Source: Desulfobulbaceae bacterium | GTDB lineage: Bacteria > Desulfobacterota > Desulfobulbia > Desulfobulbales > Desulfobulbaceae | Direction of reading: 5' to 3' | DNA length: 64,000 bases | Assembly: GCA_023544645.1 (NCBI GenBank) | Contig: JAMJFO010000012.1 | Coordinates: 1-64,000 of the forward strand | In this document: in pieces, positions 429 to 9,202 of the stretch | Layout: the number at the start of each line of letters is the position of its first letter | Position numbering within the stretch: position 1 is the first letter of the stretch | The notes under the pieces: model-generated | Database searches by the model: none | Told to the model about the DNA's origin: nothing | The model's input: the letters and a program-made list of their open reading frames with translations, nothing else | Position numbers and translations under genes: made by a program

Positions 429-725
429 ATGAAAAACAATAACAGCAACAATATTAAGAGTTGGATGGCCGCAGCTGCTTTTGCTGAAGCAGGTGAATGG
501 GATACCGCTAAAGAAATGATTCCTGAAAGCCGCCCCAACACAGAAATCAGCTTGGTTGCACGTGTTTTTGCCGCAGTAGCCTTTGCCGAAGAAGGGCTTC
601 ATCATTATGCGCAGCAATTTGTTGAACAAGGCCGCTGCACACCGAAAAAAAGCTTTGAGGACGATCTGGCGGCACTTGGGATAGGGAGAATACACTTGCG
701 CTACGGGGTTGTTTGTTGCGAATGA
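429..725 (+). CDS. Small two-repeat protein with AFAEAGE motif
   Basis: This 98-residue protein belongs to no family I can name. It contains two copies of a helical-hairpin-like unit: one at about residues 12-30, with core AFAEAGEWDTAKEM, and one at about 47-64, with core AFAEEG. The pattern (aromatic, A-E-A-G-E, then A three to five residues later) resembles half of a TPR helix pair. The start has a strong GGGAGG ribosome-binding site. A clear paralogue lies on the minus strand at 8903-9202 and shares both units and the C-terminal S-x-E-D-x-L region. It is the first gene after a sigma54-type promoter and precedes two receivers that carry the same motif in their tails. A protein-binding adaptor role is inference. 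Confidence 0.8.
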   Translation: MKNNNSNNIKSWMAAAAFAEAGEWDTAKEMIPESRPNTEISLVARVFAAVAFAEEGLHHYAQQFVEQGRCTPKKSFEDDLAALGIGRIHLRYGVVCCE

Positions 726-821: not shown

Positions 822-1343
822 ATGCAGCCGCGTGTCTTGCTTGTGAATCAGGATCTGCTTTTTTTGGAGACCTTGAGCAGAAAATTGCAACAACACCGGC
901 TCTCCGTCAAGACGGCCTCCAGTGACGAGGATATCTTCATCCGGTTGAATGATGGCGAGGTGGATGTTGTACTTCTCGACGTCCGCTTTAACGGAGAAAA
1001 AGCTGTTCAAACAATGGTTCATGCAAAAAACGAGCATCCTGAAATTGAAGTCATCCTTCTAAGTAATGCGGAAAGCATTGGGTGGGCGATGGCGGGAATG
1101 CGGGAAGGAGCGTTTGATGACATAGCAGAACCATTTGACGTAGAAAAACTTGTCGGGCGAATCGGTGCCGCCCTGAAAGTGAAAAGAAAAAGAGAAGGAA
1201 GATTTTCATTTTCTAAGTTTTTCGAAAAAAACATGATGGCGGCAACCTTTGCACAGGCAGGAGAATTTGACGCCGCAAAGAGCCTCATGGATAGTGGAAA
1301 GAAATCAAAAAAGGCGTCAAAGAAAAAGAACTCGAGCGATTAA
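822..1343 (+). CDS. Degenerate response-regulator receiver with AFAEAGE-type tail
   Basis: A 173-residue single receiver domain. The phospho-acceptor aspartate is kept (D53 in VVLLDVR), but the acidic pocket reads NQD instead of DDE and the invariant lysine is replaced by glutamate (E103 in AEPFD). Normal phosphorylation chemistry is therefore doubtful. After the receiver a basic linker leads to a tail at residues 139-156 with core ATFAQAGEFDAAKSLM, the same motif as in the small upstream protein, then a Lys/Ser-rich end. The start at 822 has GGGG 11 bases upstream. It sits between the small repeat protein and a canonical receiver; a broken homologue is at 8299-8861. No DNA-binding domain is present. 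Confidence 0.8.
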   Translation: MQPRVLLVNQDLLFLETLSRKLQQHRLSVKTASSDEDIFIRLNDGEVDVVLLDVRFNGEKAVQTMVHAKNEHPEIEVILLSNAESIGWAMAGMREGAFDDIAEPFDVEKLVGRIGAALKVKRKREGRFSFSKFFEKNMMAATFAQAGEFDAAKSLMDSGKKSKKASKKKNSSD

Positions 1344-1375: not shown

Positions 1376-1855
1376 ATGAAAGAAATGAAAGTACTTCTAG
1401 TAGATGACGAGGAAACATTCGTTAAAACACTGTCGGAACGCCTCAATATGCGCGACATGAAAAGTGACTCGGTGTTTAACGGAGAACAGGCGCTGGACTT
1501 TGTTGACGACAACGAACCGGACGTGATGGTCTTGGACCTGAAAATGCCCGGGATTGACGGCATGGAGGTTCTCCGTCAAGTCAAGAAAAAATATCCCAAC
1601 ATCCGGGTCATTATCCTGACTGGACACGGAACAGATCTGGACGAGGAGGAAGCCAAAAGGCTCGGCGTGTTCGATTACATGAAGAAACCCGCTGACATCG
1701 ACACGCTTGCCCAGCGCATCAAAGCAGCCTACCTGGAAAAAATACAGCGGTCAATGACAGCAGTCGCGTTTGCAGAGGCTGGCGAACATGACGAGGCCCG
1801 GAAGATAATGATACAGGAAAACAAAAAAGACAAAAAAGACGATTCAAAGAATTAG
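1376..1855 (+). CDS. Single-domain response regulator with AFAEAGE tail
   Basis: A 159-residue CheY-like receiver with all phosphotransfer residues: D10/D11, phospho-acceptor D54 (MVLDLKMPG), T82 and K104. It should accept a phosphoryl group from a histidine kinase that is not encoded next to it. Residues 126-145 form the tail motif SMTAVAFAEAGEHDEARKIM, followed by a Lys/Asp-rich end. No output domain is present, so it probably acts by protein contact, perhaps through the tail. It is closely related, with identical receiver numbering, to the minus-strand receiver at 7890-8294, which lacks the tail. Confidence 0.88.
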   Translation: MKEMKVLLVDDEETFVKTLSERLNMRDMKSDSVFNGEQALDFVDDNEPDVMVLDLKMPGIDGMEVLRQVKKKYPNIRVIILTGHGTDLDEEEAKRLGVFDYMKKPADIDTLAQRIKAAYLEKIQRSMTAVAFAEAGEHDEARKIMIQENKKDKKDDSKN

Positions 1856-1865
1856 GAGCTTCCCC

Positions 1866-2306
1866 ATGGAAAAAAAATTAGAAGCAAGCGTATTGCTGGT
1901 TGACGACGAAGAGCAGTTTCTGGACATGCTGTCCCAGCGCCTTGGGACCCGTGGACTCAAGGTGAATACTGTTACCAGCGGAGAAGAGGCGCTGGATCGG
2001 GTAACAGATCACAATTACGATGCGATTGTGCTGGACCTGGCCATGCCGGGCATGAACGGCATTGAAACCCTGAAACAGATTAAAGAAAAAAGGCCGGATA
2101 TTGAAATTATCATGCTGACCGGCCACGCCAACGTCAAGGACGGCATCGAGGCCATGAAAATCGGCGCTGAAGATTTTCTGGAAAAACCAATCGATATCAA
2201 CGTGCTCCTGGAGAAAATATCTGAAGCCAAGCACAAACGAATGATCGTTGTCGAAAAAAAACACCAGAAAGAGGTGAAAAAAATAATCAAGAGTAAGAGC
2301 TGGTAA
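1866..2306 (+). CDS. Single-domain response regulator
   Basis: A 146-residue receiver with D13/D14, D57 (IVLDLAMPG), T85 and K107 all present. The region after about residue 125 is a strongly basic helix rich in lysine, with no DNA-binding fold and no AFAEAGE tail. An AGGAG ribosome-binding site stands nine bases before the ATG, and the gene starts ten bases after the previous stop, so the two are probably co-transcribed. The partner kinase is unknown. The neighbours suggest that it belongs to the same signalling module as the DASS transporter downstream. Confidence 0.85.
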   Translation: MEKKLEASVLLVDDEEQFLDMLSQRLGTRGLKVNTVTSGEEALDRVTDHNYDAIVLDLAMPGMNGIETLKQIKEKRPDIEIIMLTGHANVKDGIEAMKIGAEDFLEKPIDINVLLEKISEAKHKRMIVVEKKHQKEVKKIIKSKSW

Positions 2307-2480: not shown

Positions 2481-3005
2481 GTGACTACTGATATCCCGGC
2501 AGTAAAAGACCTTGTCATTCCCATTGAGAGGTATCCCCATGTCAATCAGGATAAGACTCTCCATGATGCTGTACAGGTAATTCAATCGTACACATGCGGT
2601 GAAAATGACCGTATAAGGTATTCCGAAATCATGGTGGTAAACGATCAGAACCAGCTGGCAGGCCGCTTATCCATCCTGGATGTTTTACGTGGCCTTGACA
2701 AACGTTTTTCTGAGATCCCCAAAGTGAAGGAGTTTGCAGGAAAGGGATCAGATTACCCCAACCTGACCATCCTCTGGGAAGATGCTTTTTTTGTTGGATG
2801 CGCCAAAGGTGTTTCCAGGCCTGTCCGTGAATTCATGTCACCGATAAAGAACATGGTCAAGACCAGCGATTCGTTGTTAAAAGTCCTGTCAATCCTGTTG
2901 AGCTTGAATTGTCAACTTCTCCCTGTGGTAGAGGGGAAAAGGGTTGTCGGCGTGATCCGTCTCGAAGAGATTTTCAAAGAGATAAGTGTTCGGTGCGGTT
3001 TGTAA
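2481..3005 (+). CDS. Two-CBS-domain protein
   Basis: This 174-residue soluble protein fits a tandem CBS (Bateman) module. The first unit spans roughly residues 8-72 (EIMVVNDQNQLAGRLSILDVL) and the second roughly 113-170 (REFMSP, then LLPVVEGKRVVGVIRLEEI). CBS pairs bind adenine nucleotides and often gate transporters or enzymes. The start is GTG with a good AAGGAG site nine bases upstream. The gene lies 49 bases before the DASS transporter, so a regulatory role for that transporter is a reasonable inference, although the ligand cannot be read from the sequence. Confidence 0.78.
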   Translation: MTTDIPAVKDLVIPIERYPHVNQDKTLHDAVQVIQSYTCGENDRIRYSEIMVVNDQNQLAGRLSILDVLRGLDKRFSEIPKVKEFAGKGSDYPNLTILWEDAFFVGCAKGVSRPVREFMSPIKNMVKTSDSLLKVLSILLSLNCQLLPVVEGKRVVGVIRLEEIFKEISVRCGL

Positions 3006-3054: not shown

Positions 3055-4545
3055 ATGACGAATGCAACAACAGAGATGGGCGTGATGACTGAAAAAGAGC
3101 CCATTGATTGGAAGAGGATAATTTTTCTGCTTACGGGTATAACCCTGTTCGGGGTTGTTTACTTTTCTCCTCTCTGGCCGGATGCTGTTGACCCCCAGGG
3201 AGAACATTTTATTTTGACCAAGGAAGGCAAGGGCGCCATCGCAGTATTTCTAATTGCTGCCACTTGGTGGGTTTTTGAGGTGGTTCCCATCGGTGTTACC
3301 AGCCTGACCATAGGCCTGCTCCAGGCTCTTTTTTTCATCAGACCGGCAAAAGTGGCATTCAAGGATTTCATGGACCCATCCGTCCTCTTTATTTTCGGCT
3401 CCATCGTCATCGGCATGGTTTTTACTAAAACAGGCCTCACCAAACGCATCGCCTATAAAATGCTCGCCATCGTCGGTGAAAAAACAAGCATGATCTATCT
3501 GGGCTGCTTTGTCCTCACCGCTGCGCTCACCCACATTATGGCCCACACAGCGGTGGCGGCAACCATGTTCCCCCTGCTCATGGCCATATATGCCCTTTAC
3601 AGCGACGAAACAAAACCTACAAAGTTCGGCAAGGGGTTATTTATTGGCATGGCCTACGTCGCCGGCGCCGGTAGTATCATCACCCTCCTCGGTGCGGCCC
3701 GTGGCGCTGTGGCACTGGGTTTTTACAAAGATATCACCGGTCAGGACATCAGCTTTTTCCAACTGACCTATTACATGGCTCCGATCGGCTGGGGCATGAC
3801 CATACTGCTATGGGTGTTTTTCATGTTGGTCTGCAAGCCCGAACAGGAAACCATTCCAGGCCTCAGAGAAAAAGCGAGCCGTATGTACAAAGAGCTTGGC
3901 TCCTGGAGCACCAAAGAAATCATGACCGCTGTCATTGTCGCGTCCACCATTCTGGTTATTTCGCTTAAATCTTTCGTTCCTGCTTTTTCTGAGCTCGACA
4001 AAACCGGGGTGCTTCTTGTCTCAACCGTTCTCTTTTTCGTGGTCAACATTCTCGACATCAACGACCTGGAAGAAATTCCCTGGAATATCATTCTCCTCTT
4101 CGCCGGTGCCATGTCCATCGGCTTCTGCCTCTGGGAGACCGGGGCTGCCAAGTGGATGGCGGTCAACTGGCTCACCATGTTTCAAAACGCGCCTGCCATC
4201 GTCTTTATTCTCGGCATGGCCTTTTTTGTCATGATAATGACCAACTTTATCATGAACGTTGCCGCAATCGCCATCTCCCTGCCGGTTGCCCTTGTTATCG
4301 CCCCTTATCTCGGCGTCGGCGGCGAGGTTATCGTCTTTTCCGCTCTGATTGTGGCCGGTATGCCCTTTCTGCTTCTTGTTGGGGCTGCGCCAAACGCTAT
4401 CGCTTACAACTCGAAGCAGTTTACGACCGCTGAATTTTTCATGTACGGCATCCCTGCAAGTTTACTGCTGATGGTGGTCACCTGGGTTGCGGTTCAGTTC
4501 ATCTGGCCGATAATGGGCATGACGGTCTACCTGCCGACCCCATAA
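3055..4545 (+). CDS. DASS/SLC13-type anion transporter with atypical SNT motifs
   Basis: A 496-residue inner-membrane protein with about 11-12 hydrophobic segments and the two-fold layout of the divalent anion:Na+ symporter family, which carries dicarboxylates, citrate or sulfate. In characterised members the two re-entrant hairpins carry Ser-Asn-Thr motifs that bind Na+ and substrate. Here the equivalent positions read A163-H164-T165 (IMAHTAVAATMFP) and M400-N401-V402 (FIMNVAAIAISLP), so coupling or substrate may differ. The GAAPNAIAY motif near residue 450 is kept. The CBS gene upstream and a receiver-carbonic-anhydrase-like fusion downstream suggest controlled uptake of an anion; which one is unknown. 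Confidence 0.85.
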   Translation: MTNATTEMGVMTEKEPIDWKRIIFLLTGITLFGVVYFSPLWPDAVDPQGEHFILTKEGKGAIAVFLIAATWWVFEVVPIGVTSLTIGLLQALFFIRPAKVAFKDFMDPSVLFIFGSIVIGMVFTKTGLTKRIAYKMLAIVGEKTSMIYLGCFVLTAALTHIMAHTAVAATMFPLLMAIYALYSDETKPTKFGKGLFIGMAYVAGAGSIITLLGAARGAVALGFYKDITGQDISFFQLTYYMAPIGWGMTILLWVFFMLVCKPEQETIPGLREKASRMYKELGSWSTKEIMTAVIVASTILVISLKSFVPAFSELDKTGVLLVSTVLFFVVNILDINDLEEIPWNIILLFAGAMSIGFCLWETGAAKWMAVNWLTMFQNAPAIVFILGMAFFVMIMTNFIMNVAAIAISLPVALVIAPYLGVGGEVIVFSALIVAGMPFLLLVGAAPNAIAYNSKQFTTAEFFMYGIPASLLLMVVTWVAVQFIWPIMGMTVYLPTP

Positions 4546-4618
4546 CATCGAAGACACCAGGACAATGAACCTTTGCCATGCACGGAAAGACGGATCTTAT
4601 ATTGGAGAAAGTAGAGCT

Positions 4619-5707
4619 ATGCAGGAAGAAAAAAAAATAAAAGTGCTGCTTGTTGATGATGAAGAGACCTTTGCCAAGACCCTATCCGAACGTTTGACAA
4701 CCCGAGATCTTGCATCAGAGGCGGTTTTTGGCGGCACCCAGGCTCTGGAATCCATCGGCGCCGATGAACCGGATGTCATGGTTCTTGATCTCAAAATGCC
4801 CGGAATGGATGGCATGGAAGTGTTGAGAAGGGTCAAGAAAAATTACCCAAATATCAGAACAATCATTCTCAGCGGCCACGGCACTGATACCGACAAAAAA
4901 GAAGCCGCCGAACTCGGGGTGGTTGATTTTCTCGTAAAGCCAGCCGCGATAAACATGCTTACCGAAAAAATCAAAGTCGCCTTTGCTGCGAAAAGCAGCC
5001 CTGAAATGATGTATTCATACAACGATTTCGTTCCTATCCTGAAAAAACATCTCAATAATGAAGGCGTAACCCTTGGGAAAAACGCCCTTGGCATAAAATG
5101 CTTTTGCCGGGACGACAATCAGGATCATATCGGCGCCTTGCTCATGAGCACCGGCAGCAGTACTGGATGGTTTGACCTCAATGCCTTCGGCGCCTTTCCT
5201 GCGGGACGCAGCCTCGAAAGCCTTGGCCCGCCTTCGCATCATATCCCTGAGTTGCTGAAGGATCCATGGACTGTGGTGCTCCACGCCACCCATGTGGGCT
5301 GTGATTCAAAATTCACCCTTGGCATGACGGACCGGTACGGCATGAAAAAACCCAGCGCCTCCTGCGGATTGCTTGCCGCAATATTGAAACGCCATAACGA
5401 TCGCCGCAATGGGATAATCCCTCCCGTCCTCCGCGATTTTGAAATGCACGAAACAGAGAAGGCGCTTCTCCCCCATCTCGACAAAATACAAGAGACAGCC
5501 TATCCGATGGCTGCTATCGCTGAAAAGCTCCAGGAGCTTGGCTGCGACATTTTTGACGCTCTGCTTAAAGAAAGCGGCACCAAATCCATTTATATCGGCG
5601 GCATCAATGTCGACTACGAGGCTGAAAACCCGGCGAATAATTTTTTTGTCCCCAAGAAGGTCTTTCTTTATGAAGGGGGCATAAGAAGAGAGCTGGCAAT
5701 CAACTGA
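4619..5707 (+). CDS. Response regulator fused to an LCIB-like (beta-carbonic-anhydrase-type) domain
   Basis: A 362-residue protein. Residues 1-125 are a full receiver (D13/D14, D57, S85, K107). Residues 130-362 form an output domain whose order of conserved residues matches the LCIB/LCIC beta carbonic anhydrase family: C-R-D-D at 163-166, then FDLNAFGAFPAG at 185-196, then H225 in HATHVG, then S246-A-S-C249-G-L-L. In that family the zinc ligands are Cys, His and Cys with an Asp-Arg pair. The match is from memory of the motif pattern, so the domain name needs a profile search. I chose the ATG at 4619 (GGAG upstream) over an earlier in-frame ATG at 4565 because the receiver begins there. It is the last gene of the transporter cluster. 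Confidence 0.7.
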   Translation: MQEEKKIKVLLVDDEETFAKTLSERLTTRDLASEAVFGGTQALESIGADEPDVMVLDLKMPGMDGMEVLRRVKKNYPNIRTIILSGHGTDTDKKEAAELGVVDFLVKPAAINMLTEKIKVAFAAKSSPEMMYSYNDFVPILKKHLNNEGVTLGKNALGIKCFCRDDNQDHIGALLMSTGSSTGWFDLNAFGAFPAGRSLESLGPPSHHIPELLKDPWTVVLHATHVGCDSKFTLGMTDRYGMKKPSASCGLLAAILKRHNDRRNGIIPPVLRDFEMHETEKALLPHLDKIQETAYPMAAIAEKLQELGCDIFDALLKESGTKSIYIGGINVDYEAENPANNFFVPKKVFLYEGGIRRELAIN

Positions 5708-6007: not shown

Positions 6008-6172
6008 GAAAAGGATAGAAAGATAATTTTTGTGGTGGACCATGCCCTTGTCATGGCTGAGGAGTTCACCCTTATGCGCAAGTCAAAGCCGGTGCTTCTC
6101 GCAACAGGGCGCTCATCTGGGGGATAATCGCCTTTGGGGCTATGCCAGCCTTGGAATGCCCCATGCCGCTGG
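6008..6172 (+). pseudogene. Remnant of an NhaD-type Na+/H+ antiporter
   Basis: In one frame the translation reads ALVMAEEFTLMRKSKPVLL followed by ATG. After a shift near base 6111 it continues LIWGIIAFGAMPAL. EE-x4-RKSKPV-x-LA-x-G followed by an I-I-W-type helix is the pattern I associate with NhaD antiporters. There is no start codon or ribosome-binding site, and stops lie on both sides (TAA at 6005 and 6125), so this is a broken fragment of about 50 codons. The rest of the gap between 5780 and 6382 contains nothing else I can support. The family assignment is from motif memory only. Confidence 0.45.
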
Positions 6173-6918: not shown

Positions 6919-7255
6919 TTACAAAGCAGAACCAGCTAACTCCAGGGCTGACATTTCAGCCTTTCCCATGACGATCAGATCGTTTTCTTTTTTGTGGGAA
7001 ACATCAATTATCGTATCCGACGGCCTGCCGTCCTGGAATAACACATCCATGGCCACTTTTTCCTGCCGCGAAATAAGTTTCACGCCGGAGACGACATCAT
7101 CCCTTTCGTCCCCGCTGATATCTTTGGCAAAAAAAGGAACAACCACAAGCACATGGCTCTCATTCCACCGTGCTATGCGGCAGGACATCCTGAGATGTGT
7201 ATTCCGTGGAGATGGTGCCGTCATAGGGAACGAGAATTTTATTGTAATGCCTCAA
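6919..7255 (-). pseudogene. Frameshifted universal stress protein (UspA family)
   Basis: A TTG start at 7255 with a good AGGAG site gives NKILVPYDGTISTEY, the typical UspA N-terminus, but this frame stops after about 30 codons. A shift near 7180 restores a Usp-like continuation with IARWNESHVLVVVPF, then PSDTIIDVSHKKENDLIVMG, and an early stop at 6919. Even after repair the product would be about 112 residues, short of the usual 140-150 and lacking the C-terminal G-x9-G-S region beyond a short stub. It looks like a decaying gene. Confidence 0.65.
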
Positions 7256-7849: not shown

Positions 7850-7889
7850 CAGTTCAACCTTCCCTTGCGTCATCATTCCCTCCGCCCGA

Positions 7890-8294
7890 TTAAAAAGCTG
7901 ATTCCAGCTTCATTCCATCGATTTGCCTTTTCACCTGCGCGGCCGTCCTGATGCGCTCGGCAAGCAATTCGATATCGACTGGTTTTTTGAGATAATCAAA
8001 AACTCCCAGTTTCCAGGCCTCAGCAGTTTCCTCGTCGGCGCCGTGCCCTGTCTGGACGATTACCTGAATGGTCGGATAATTCCGCCTTACCTGACGAAGA
8101 ACTTCCATTCCGTCTATCCCCGGCATTTTCAAGTCAAGGACCATGACATCGGGCGCGGCGCCGTTCAGTTCACGAATGGCGTCCAGCCCGCCAAGCGCGA
8201 CATCACTGGACAAATCCCTCAGGTCAAGTCGCTCCGCCAGTGTCCTGACAAAATTTTCCTCATCGTCCACCAGTAGTATTTTGATATCTTCCAT
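7890..8294 (-). CDS. Single-domain response regulator (module copy 2)
   Basis: A 134-residue receiver with D10/D11, D54 (MVLDLKMPGIDG), T82 and K104, all at the same positions as the plus-strand receiver at 1376-1855, to which it is clearly paralogous. The start at 8294 has AGAGGT upstream and follows the stop of the broken receiver gene at 8299. The open frame continues upstream only because of the frameshift in that gene. It ends soon after the receiver (KLESAF) and lacks the AFAEAGE tail of its paralogue. Confidence 0.82.
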   Translation of the reverse strand: MEDIKILLVDDEENFVRTLAERLDLRDLSSDVALGGLDAIRELNGAAPDVMVLDLKMPGIDGMEVLRQVRRNYPTIQVIVQTGHGADEETAEAWKLGVFDYLKKPVDIELLAERIRTAAQVKRQIDGMKLESAF

Positions 8295-8298
8295 ACTG

Positions 8299-8861
8299 TT
8301 ACCTCTTTCTTGCGTTTTTATTCGTGCTGCTTTCGCCCGAATCTTTTTTGCCGTTATCAACGCTTTCTTCCGAAGCTGATGCGTCCATGATGCTGATCGC
8401 CGTATCAAATTCCCCGGCCTGGGCAAAGCTACGGCGCTCATCGAATCCTCGAAAAGCTTCTGCAGCGAGCGCCTGTGCCTGACAACGCTCTTTTTCCTGC
8501 TGCGATGACATGCTTCAACGACCTTGCGCTTCAACTTCTCCATGTCAAACGGAACCGTCAGGTCATCACTGGCGCCGGCCCGCATGCCAGCCATCGAGGC
8601 GTTCACGTTGTCGCTGTAATTGATCAGAACCACATCGACGGAAGGCATTGATTCGCGAATCAGCCTGAGCCCGCCAAGCATTTTTTCGGCCTGATGGCGA
8701 ACATCGACCAGGACAACGTCGATTGCAGCAGGCCATCCCTACCCCTTCCCCGGCTTATGCTGGTGGACGGTCGCACCCCACTGCCGCAGTTTCCCGCCAA
8801 GTGTTTCCAGCAGTGAATCGTCTTGGGTCACGATAAGAAGCGCGGCGTCTGCCCGCTCCAT
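8299..8861 (-). pseudogene. Broken degenerate receiver (module copy 2)
   Basis: Homologue of the receiver at 822-1343. The ATG at 8861 gives LLIVTQDDSLLETLGGKL, then an in-frame TAG stop at codon 41 (8739-8741). The same frame continues with IDVVLVDVR, MAGMRAGASDDL and VPFDMEKL. Near 8429 one base is missing: the frame leaves SMSAVA, and the other frame resumes FAQAGEFDTAISIMD and ends at 8299. Repaired, the protein would have the same layout as its plus-strand paralogue, including the tail motif, and it too lacks the conserved lysine (V before PFD). Two independent lesions make loss of function likely. Confidence 0.75.
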
Positions 8862-8902
8862 GCGTCCGCAGTTACCGCCAAGCATCTGCCGCAACGAGGG
8901 TT

Positions 8903-9202
8903 TCAGCTTGCCCTGACGGAAACCACGGCATAGGTTACCGACACTCCGCGCAGTCCGGTCGCTTCAAGAAAATCTTCAATGCTGTGATGATGGCGGCGGG
9001 GCTGTTCATCCATGATGCGTATTGCTTCTTCATGGAGCCCGCCTTCGGCAAAAGCGACCGCCATAAATGCTTTTTGCAGATACCCCAGCCTGCTTTTGGG
9101 AGTGGAAGGAGGAATCATCTCCCTGGCGACCTCCCATTCACCTGCTTCGTCAAAAGTGACAGCCATCATCCAACCGCGATATTTATCAGACGATTCGTTC
9201 AT
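8903..9202 (-). CDS. Small two-repeat protein with AFAEAGE-type motif (module copy 2)
   Basis: A 99-residue paralogue of the plus-strand protein at 429-725. Unit one is at residues 11-29 (WMMAVTFDEAGEWEVAREM) and unit two at about 46-64 (FMAVAFAEGGLHEEAIRIM). The C-terminal S-x-E-D-x-L region and the Y-x-V-V end are shared with the paralogue. GGAGG stands eight bases before the ATG at 9202, and a sigma54-type promoter lies further upstream. Unlike the next gene in its operon it is intact. Function unknown; the repeats suggest a small helical binding protein. Confidence 0.78.
   Translation of the reverse strand: MNESSDKYRGWMMAVTFDEAGEWEVAREMIPPSTPKSRLGYLQKAFMAVAFAEGGLHEEAIRIMDEQPRRHHHSIEDFLEATGLRGVSVTYAVVSVRAS

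Follow-up and report, generated by a model that had tools for sequence, protein, structure and literature searches.

What a receiver domain and a carbonic anhydrase-type domain could be doing in one protein, directly behind the gene of an anion permease, is the question raised by a locus of a sulfate-reducing bacterium. The locus lies in a window of 64,000 nucleotides (the whole stretch of DNA that was analysed), and window coordinates refer to the forward (+) strand unless (-) is indicated. The protein, named RR-LCIB here, is encoded at 4619..5707 and consists of 362 residues, in which a receiver domain is fused to an LCIB-type carbonic anhydrase domain. The LCIB family is known mainly from algal CO2-concentrating mechanisms, and RR-LCIB places it in anaerobic sulfur metabolism. 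An open-literature search found no published receiver-carbonic anhydrase fusion, and we know of none.

Architecture of the protein and its LCIB-type domain

The reading frame of RR-LCIB, as translated from the window, is uninterrupted from the ATG at 4619 to the stop at 5707. An upstream ATG at 4565 was also considered as the start and was rejected, since the one at 4619 is preceded by a ribosome-binding-like stretch (GGAGAAAG) and agrees with the start of the ortholog described below. The N-terminal part contains a receiver domain (residues 9-119; 4643..4975; PF00072, E=4.7e-26) in which the phospho-acceptor set is entire, that is, the acidic pair D13/D14, the phospho-acceptor D57, S85 and the conserved K107, so that the complete receiver claimed by the original prediction is indeed there. 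A DNA-binding domain is absent, so the protein is no ordinary transcription factor.

The C-terminal part is occupied by an LCIB_C_CA domain (residues 134-348; 5018..5662), which is matched by the profile PF18599 (positions 4-219 of 223) with E=7.1e-18 and 65.2 bits, the gathering score being 25. Sequence searches of the PDB with this domain alone retrieved 9w05 (E=8e-6) and 6kfs (E=0.002), a two-sequence profile of the domain gave 9w05 (E=1.2e-6) and CrLCIB 5k5w (E=0.02), and, when profile was compared with profile, canonical stand-alone LCIBs from the same phylum were matched with E=5e-8 across 215 columns. Related to this, an AlphaFold2 model of the domain, built from two-sequence input, is of low confidence (pLDDT 49, pTM 0.51; pLDDT 41 for the full-length protein, also modelled from two sequences) and was used only through fold matches. 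When this low-confidence model was compared with the PDB by Foldseek, the best 8 matches were all to the LCIB family (entries 6kfs, 5b5x, 5b5y, 5b5z, 5b60 and 5k5w; probability 1.00, TM 0.57-0.69), and classical beta-carbonic anhydrases came after them in the ranking; a viral structure library contained no match to the model. The predicted domain matches all the LCIB-family structures and little else. Membership of the LCIB family is firm, and the LCIB fold can be regarded as established at the level of the predicted model; the family assignment originally made for the C-terminal part is borne out by PF18599, by the PDB sequence matches and by the fold matches.

The profile of the classical beta-carbonic anhydrases (PF00484, Pro_CA) gave no match to RR-LCIB. 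One separate PF00484 beta-carbonic anhydrase gene is present in the same genome, on another contig, and therefore RR-LCIB is not the housekeeping enzyme; it would be a dedicated, regulated one. The viral and plasmid collections searched for relatives of RR-LCIB contained none.

Concerning the active site, the motifs that had been noticed in the sequence (C163-R-D-D, F185-x-L, H222-A-T-H225-V-G and S246-A-S-C249-G) were all found, with the same residue numbering, in the 362-residue translation. The predicted zinc ligands are C163, H225 and C249, which, as proposed, align with the Cys-His-Cys ligand positions of the LCIB family; the alignments show no variation at C163, D165, H208, H225, R239 and C249 among RR-LCIB, the canonical LCIBs and the divergent long LCIB. 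When positions are counted from the first ligand Cys, H208 and R239 correspond to H162 and R194 of CrLCIB, which a review describes as important for the active site, and the deposited mutants S47R and H88A of PtLCIB4 map to R164 and H208 of RR-LCIB. The residue following the first Cys is Arg in RR-LCIB (CRDD), as in CrLCIB/LCIC, and Ser in PtLCIB4. According to the review, CrLCIB/LCIC are inactive when purified, and carbonic anhydrase activity is not uniform even within the LCIB family. Because the Arg of CRDD is shared with these proteins, catalysis by RR-LCIB is not to be assumed, and a non-catalytic LCIB domain is possible as far as the residues tell.

The anion permease cluster

The gene located 73 bp upstream of RR-LCIB encodes a DASS/SLC13-type anion permease of 496 residues (3055..4545; PF00939, E=8e-40). 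This permease is matched above cut-off by PF00939 and PF03600, and the NCBIfam dass model gives 188.8 bits, just under its cut-off of 198.6. It seems to have AHT and IMN in the places where characterised DASS proteins carry SNT motifs, and its substrate may be non-standard. It is preceded by a two-CBS-domain protein, the DASS partner (2481..3005; PF00571), which is found beside DASS in many genomes, and by a stand-alone receiver of RR1866 type (1866..2306; PF00072, E=2.6e-33), conserved next to CBS-DASS. Further upstream are the receiver RR1376 (1376..1855; PF00072), the degenerate receiver RR822, which has a short helical tail (822..1343; PF00072, E=5e-12), and a small protein with an 'AFAEAGE' motif (429..725), assigned to no Pfam family and conserved beside RR822/RR1376 as the first gene of a trio. 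In relatives, this trio adjoins other output genes (L033, L034, L036) and so appears to be a signalling module of general use. An inverted second copy of the trio is located at 7863-9199 (-) of the window; since RR822 is broken across reading frames there, this copy is probably decaying. Besides, an ORF at 6919-7224 (-) is similar to the C-terminus of a universal stress protein and is possibly a fragment.

One ortholog of RR-LCIB was found (L012:5605-6696, also seen as L003/L025), in a Desulfobacteraceae MAG of the same genus and in the same cluster. There the cluster begins with a kinase, a receiver and a small kinase-like protein, followed by the small protein, RR822, RR1376, RR1866, CBS, DASS, RR-LCIB and NhaD-like permease. 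The cluster kinase falls outside the window because of the contig start, and the kinases are known from the ortholog's cluster, where L025 encodes them at 519-1337 (truncated N-terminally by the contig edge) and 1760-2437. The NhaD-like permease that follows RR-LCIB is intact in the ortholog locus (L012:6856-8382); in the window it is represented by a remnant of an NhaD-like (CitMHS family) permease at 6023..6118, with 69-76% identity across 29-32 residues only, and no other copy was found in the window's genome beyond this 32-residue remnant. The NhaD-like permease has been lost from this genome and RR-LCIB persists.

Of 251 genomes of the order, 91 have close DASS homologues, with the CBS gene adjoining. 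In a study of 2025, a cluster of DASS, two-component and CBS genes with cache-type kinases, from Desulfosarcina variabilis and relatives, was described as a sulfate uptake system (PMC11887813). The match to the window cluster was made by architecture, not by gene sequences, and in these terms the window transporter is part of this DASS/CBS/two-component cluster of Desulfobacterales. Both have the DASS permease, the CBS protein, several receivers and, in relatives, the cache-type kinase, whereas no carbonic anhydrase component is mentioned in the consulted description of the published cluster. From this literature, sulfate is probably the substrate of the permease. The possibility that the permease imports bicarbonate was set aside, its proximity to RR-LCIB being the only point in favour.

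Distribution and origin of the fusion

Beyond these two proteins, searches that covered the 258 genomes of the order in full found no further copies of RR-LCIB, and a phylum sample of 395 genomes contained other LCIB types only. RR-LCIB and its ortholog are 58% identical overall and 61% across the LCIB part, the latter being conserved no less than the receiver. In both domains pS is about 0.75-0.77 (saturated) and pN about 0.25 (low), and both halves of RR-LCIB are under purifying selection.

Judged from its sequence, the receiver of RR-LCIB derives from the response regulators of its own cluster. It is 66% identical to the stand-alone neighbour RR1376, its closest relative, and in a receiver tree (n=72) both RR-LCIB receivers fall among receivers from the same type of cluster, in a clade with support 95/90. 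In the LCIB tree, RR-LCIB forms a deep branch of its own, apart from canonical and long LCIBs, with saturated distances. Our reading of the two trees is that a local receiver may have been duplicated and then joined to an LCIB domain of other source. The local long LCIB was rejected as the source of RR-LCIB, since the two are separate supported branches, though the distances are saturated.

A different LCIB protein is found in the same slot in G475, from a second family of the order, where a stand-alone long LCIB of 398 residues (L057:7612-8808) lies exactly between DASS and the NhaD-like permease. The DASS of G475 is 85% identical to that of the window, its NhaD-like permease is 80% identical to that of the ortholog, and its cluster kinase contains a dCache-like sensor (under its curated cut-off) together with HisKA and HATPase domains. 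From the sequences, it appears that an LCIB protein entered the DASS-NhaD slot twice and in two unrelated forms, because RR-LCIB and the long LCIB are separate branches; two cases are, of course, few. In a manual comparison, a long LCIB and this DASS were 20 kb or less apart in five of the roughly 44 genomes having both (G475, G551, G553, G554 and G631, three of them of the same genus).

Stand-alone long LCIBs of about 395 residues are present in 64 of 253 Desulfobacterales genomes. Several of their genes are located beside, or a few kb from, genes of SulP-STAS anion permeases (L083, L084, L120, L122, L127, L128). The permease of L084 was confirmed by PF00916 and PF01740. With SulP-STAS, the anion transporters associated with LCIB are of two types.

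Proposed function, alternatives and related systems

Taken as a whole, the reading that we hold to be somewhat probable is that RR-LCIB acts as a response regulator whose output is an enzyme, namely a cytoplasmic carbonic anhydrase gated by phosphorylation that ties CO2/HCO3- conversion to the uptake of an anion, probably sulfate; here we infer catalysis, phospho-control, kinase pairing, substrate and purpose. The histidine kinase of the DASS cluster would phosphorylate D57 of the receiver, upon which the LCIB-type beta-carbonic anhydrase joined to it would change in activity or oligomeric state; the reaction of this enzyme would be CO2 + H2O <-> HCO3- + H+. The benefit could be that the interconversion or disposal of CO2/bicarbonate and protons from complete oxidation is matched to the Na+-driven uptake of the anion (probably sulfate) by DASS. 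The arrangement suggests that the sensors in charge of anion uptake may also switch CO2/bicarbonate handling, and a carbon-anion circuit is plausible, in which sulfate uptake together with CO2/HCO3- is more likely than bicarbonate import. By way of analogy only, the relocation of algal LCIB/LCIC has been associated with phosphorylation (PMC10096703). If RR-LCIB is active and gated, a two-component phospho-signal would switch a carbonic anhydrase, and two processes that are not usually connected in sulfate reducers, uptake of the electron acceptor and handling of the CO2/bicarbonate from complete oxidation, would be joined through it.

A broader proposal, which we put forward as tentative and of rather low probability, is that LCIB-type carbonic anhydrases of sulfate reducers are dedicated partners of anion uptake, repeatedly recruited beside DASS/SulP and here placed under direct two-component control. 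They would couple bicarbonate/CO2 turnover to sulfate import, for example by sulfate/bicarbonate exchange or by pH and charge balance. It has also been considered that the LCIB domain is catalytically silent and serves as a sensor or ligand-binding module for CO2/bicarbonate, which would inform the two-component network or the transporter about the state of inorganic carbon, or would set the phosphorylation of the receiver, in either case without bulk catalysis. This explanation fits the CRDD motif, which resembles that of CrLCIB/LCIC (inactive when purified, according to the review), and also the attachment of a signalling domain and the existence of another carbonic anhydrase in the genome. 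Nevertheless, all six active-site positions, including H208 and R239, are kept at 58% overall identity, and the Asp-Arg pair is retained although a pure sensor could dispense with it; a silent sensor is thus judged unlikely.

Some enzymes of the beta-carbonic anhydrase fold are COS and CS2 hydrolases, and the domain might likewise act on COS, CS2 or a different small substrate containing sulfur or carbon. Such an activity would fit the sulfur metabolism of the host, a sulfate reducer, as well as the sulfate-type transporter neighbourhood and the deep branching of RR-LCIB away from both canonical and long LCIBs. However, we know of no LCIB-family member with COS/CS2 activity, the active-site positions match those of the carbonic anhydrase-type LCIBs and nothing in the analysis indicates COS or CS2, so that such a substrate seems very improbable. 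A hardly better chance is given to an accidental fusion, recent, lineage-specific and inconsequential, carried in a decaying region next to pseudogenes. Its occurrence in only two genomes of one genus and the decay of the downstream NhaD gene and of the inverted receiver-trio copy would be expected from such an accident, but not an ORF that two species have kept intact while diverging to 58% identity, with synonymous change saturated, non-synonymous change low and an LCIB part (61%) no less conserved than the receiver.

Several known systems can be compared with RR-LCIB. It resembles the LCIB/LCIC beta- (theta-) carbonic anhydrases (PF18599; CrLCIB 5k5w, CrLCIC 5b5x, PtLCIB4 5b5y, 6kfs) in the predicted fold, the predicted Cys-His-Cys site and the Asp/His/Arg positions, and differs from them in its N-terminal receiver, its separate deep branch, its sulfate-reducer host and its location in a two-component cluster of anion uptake. 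The design of a receiver followed by a catalytic output domain is shared with response regulators of enzymatic output such as CheB and the RR-phosphodiesterases. The long LCIBs of Desulfobacterales (CSDENQ motif) have the active-site positions in common with RR-LCIB and, in G475, the same slot; on the other hand, they lack a receiver, are about 160 residues longer, have Ser and not Arg after the first Cys and are mostly found beside complex-I-like genes.

In DAB2 (DabA, beta-carbonic anhydrase-like, and DabB, complex-I-like; PMC13144422), a beta-carbonic anhydrase-like protein is likewise genetically tied to a membrane transporter. RR-LCIB, however, is not DabA, is soluble and has a DASS permease as partner; the operons of long LCIB and NuoL-like genes are closer to DAB2. 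Thirteen of the 20 long LCIB loci examined have NuoL/NuoH/NuoK/NuoN/HyfG-like genes adjoining (among them L084:7538-14075, L114, L118, L119, L121, L123-L126 and L129), and in 11 of these the long LCIB gene lies directly upstream. This neighbourhood recalls the DabA-DabB pairing of a beta-carbonic anhydrase-like protein with a complex-I-like subunit.
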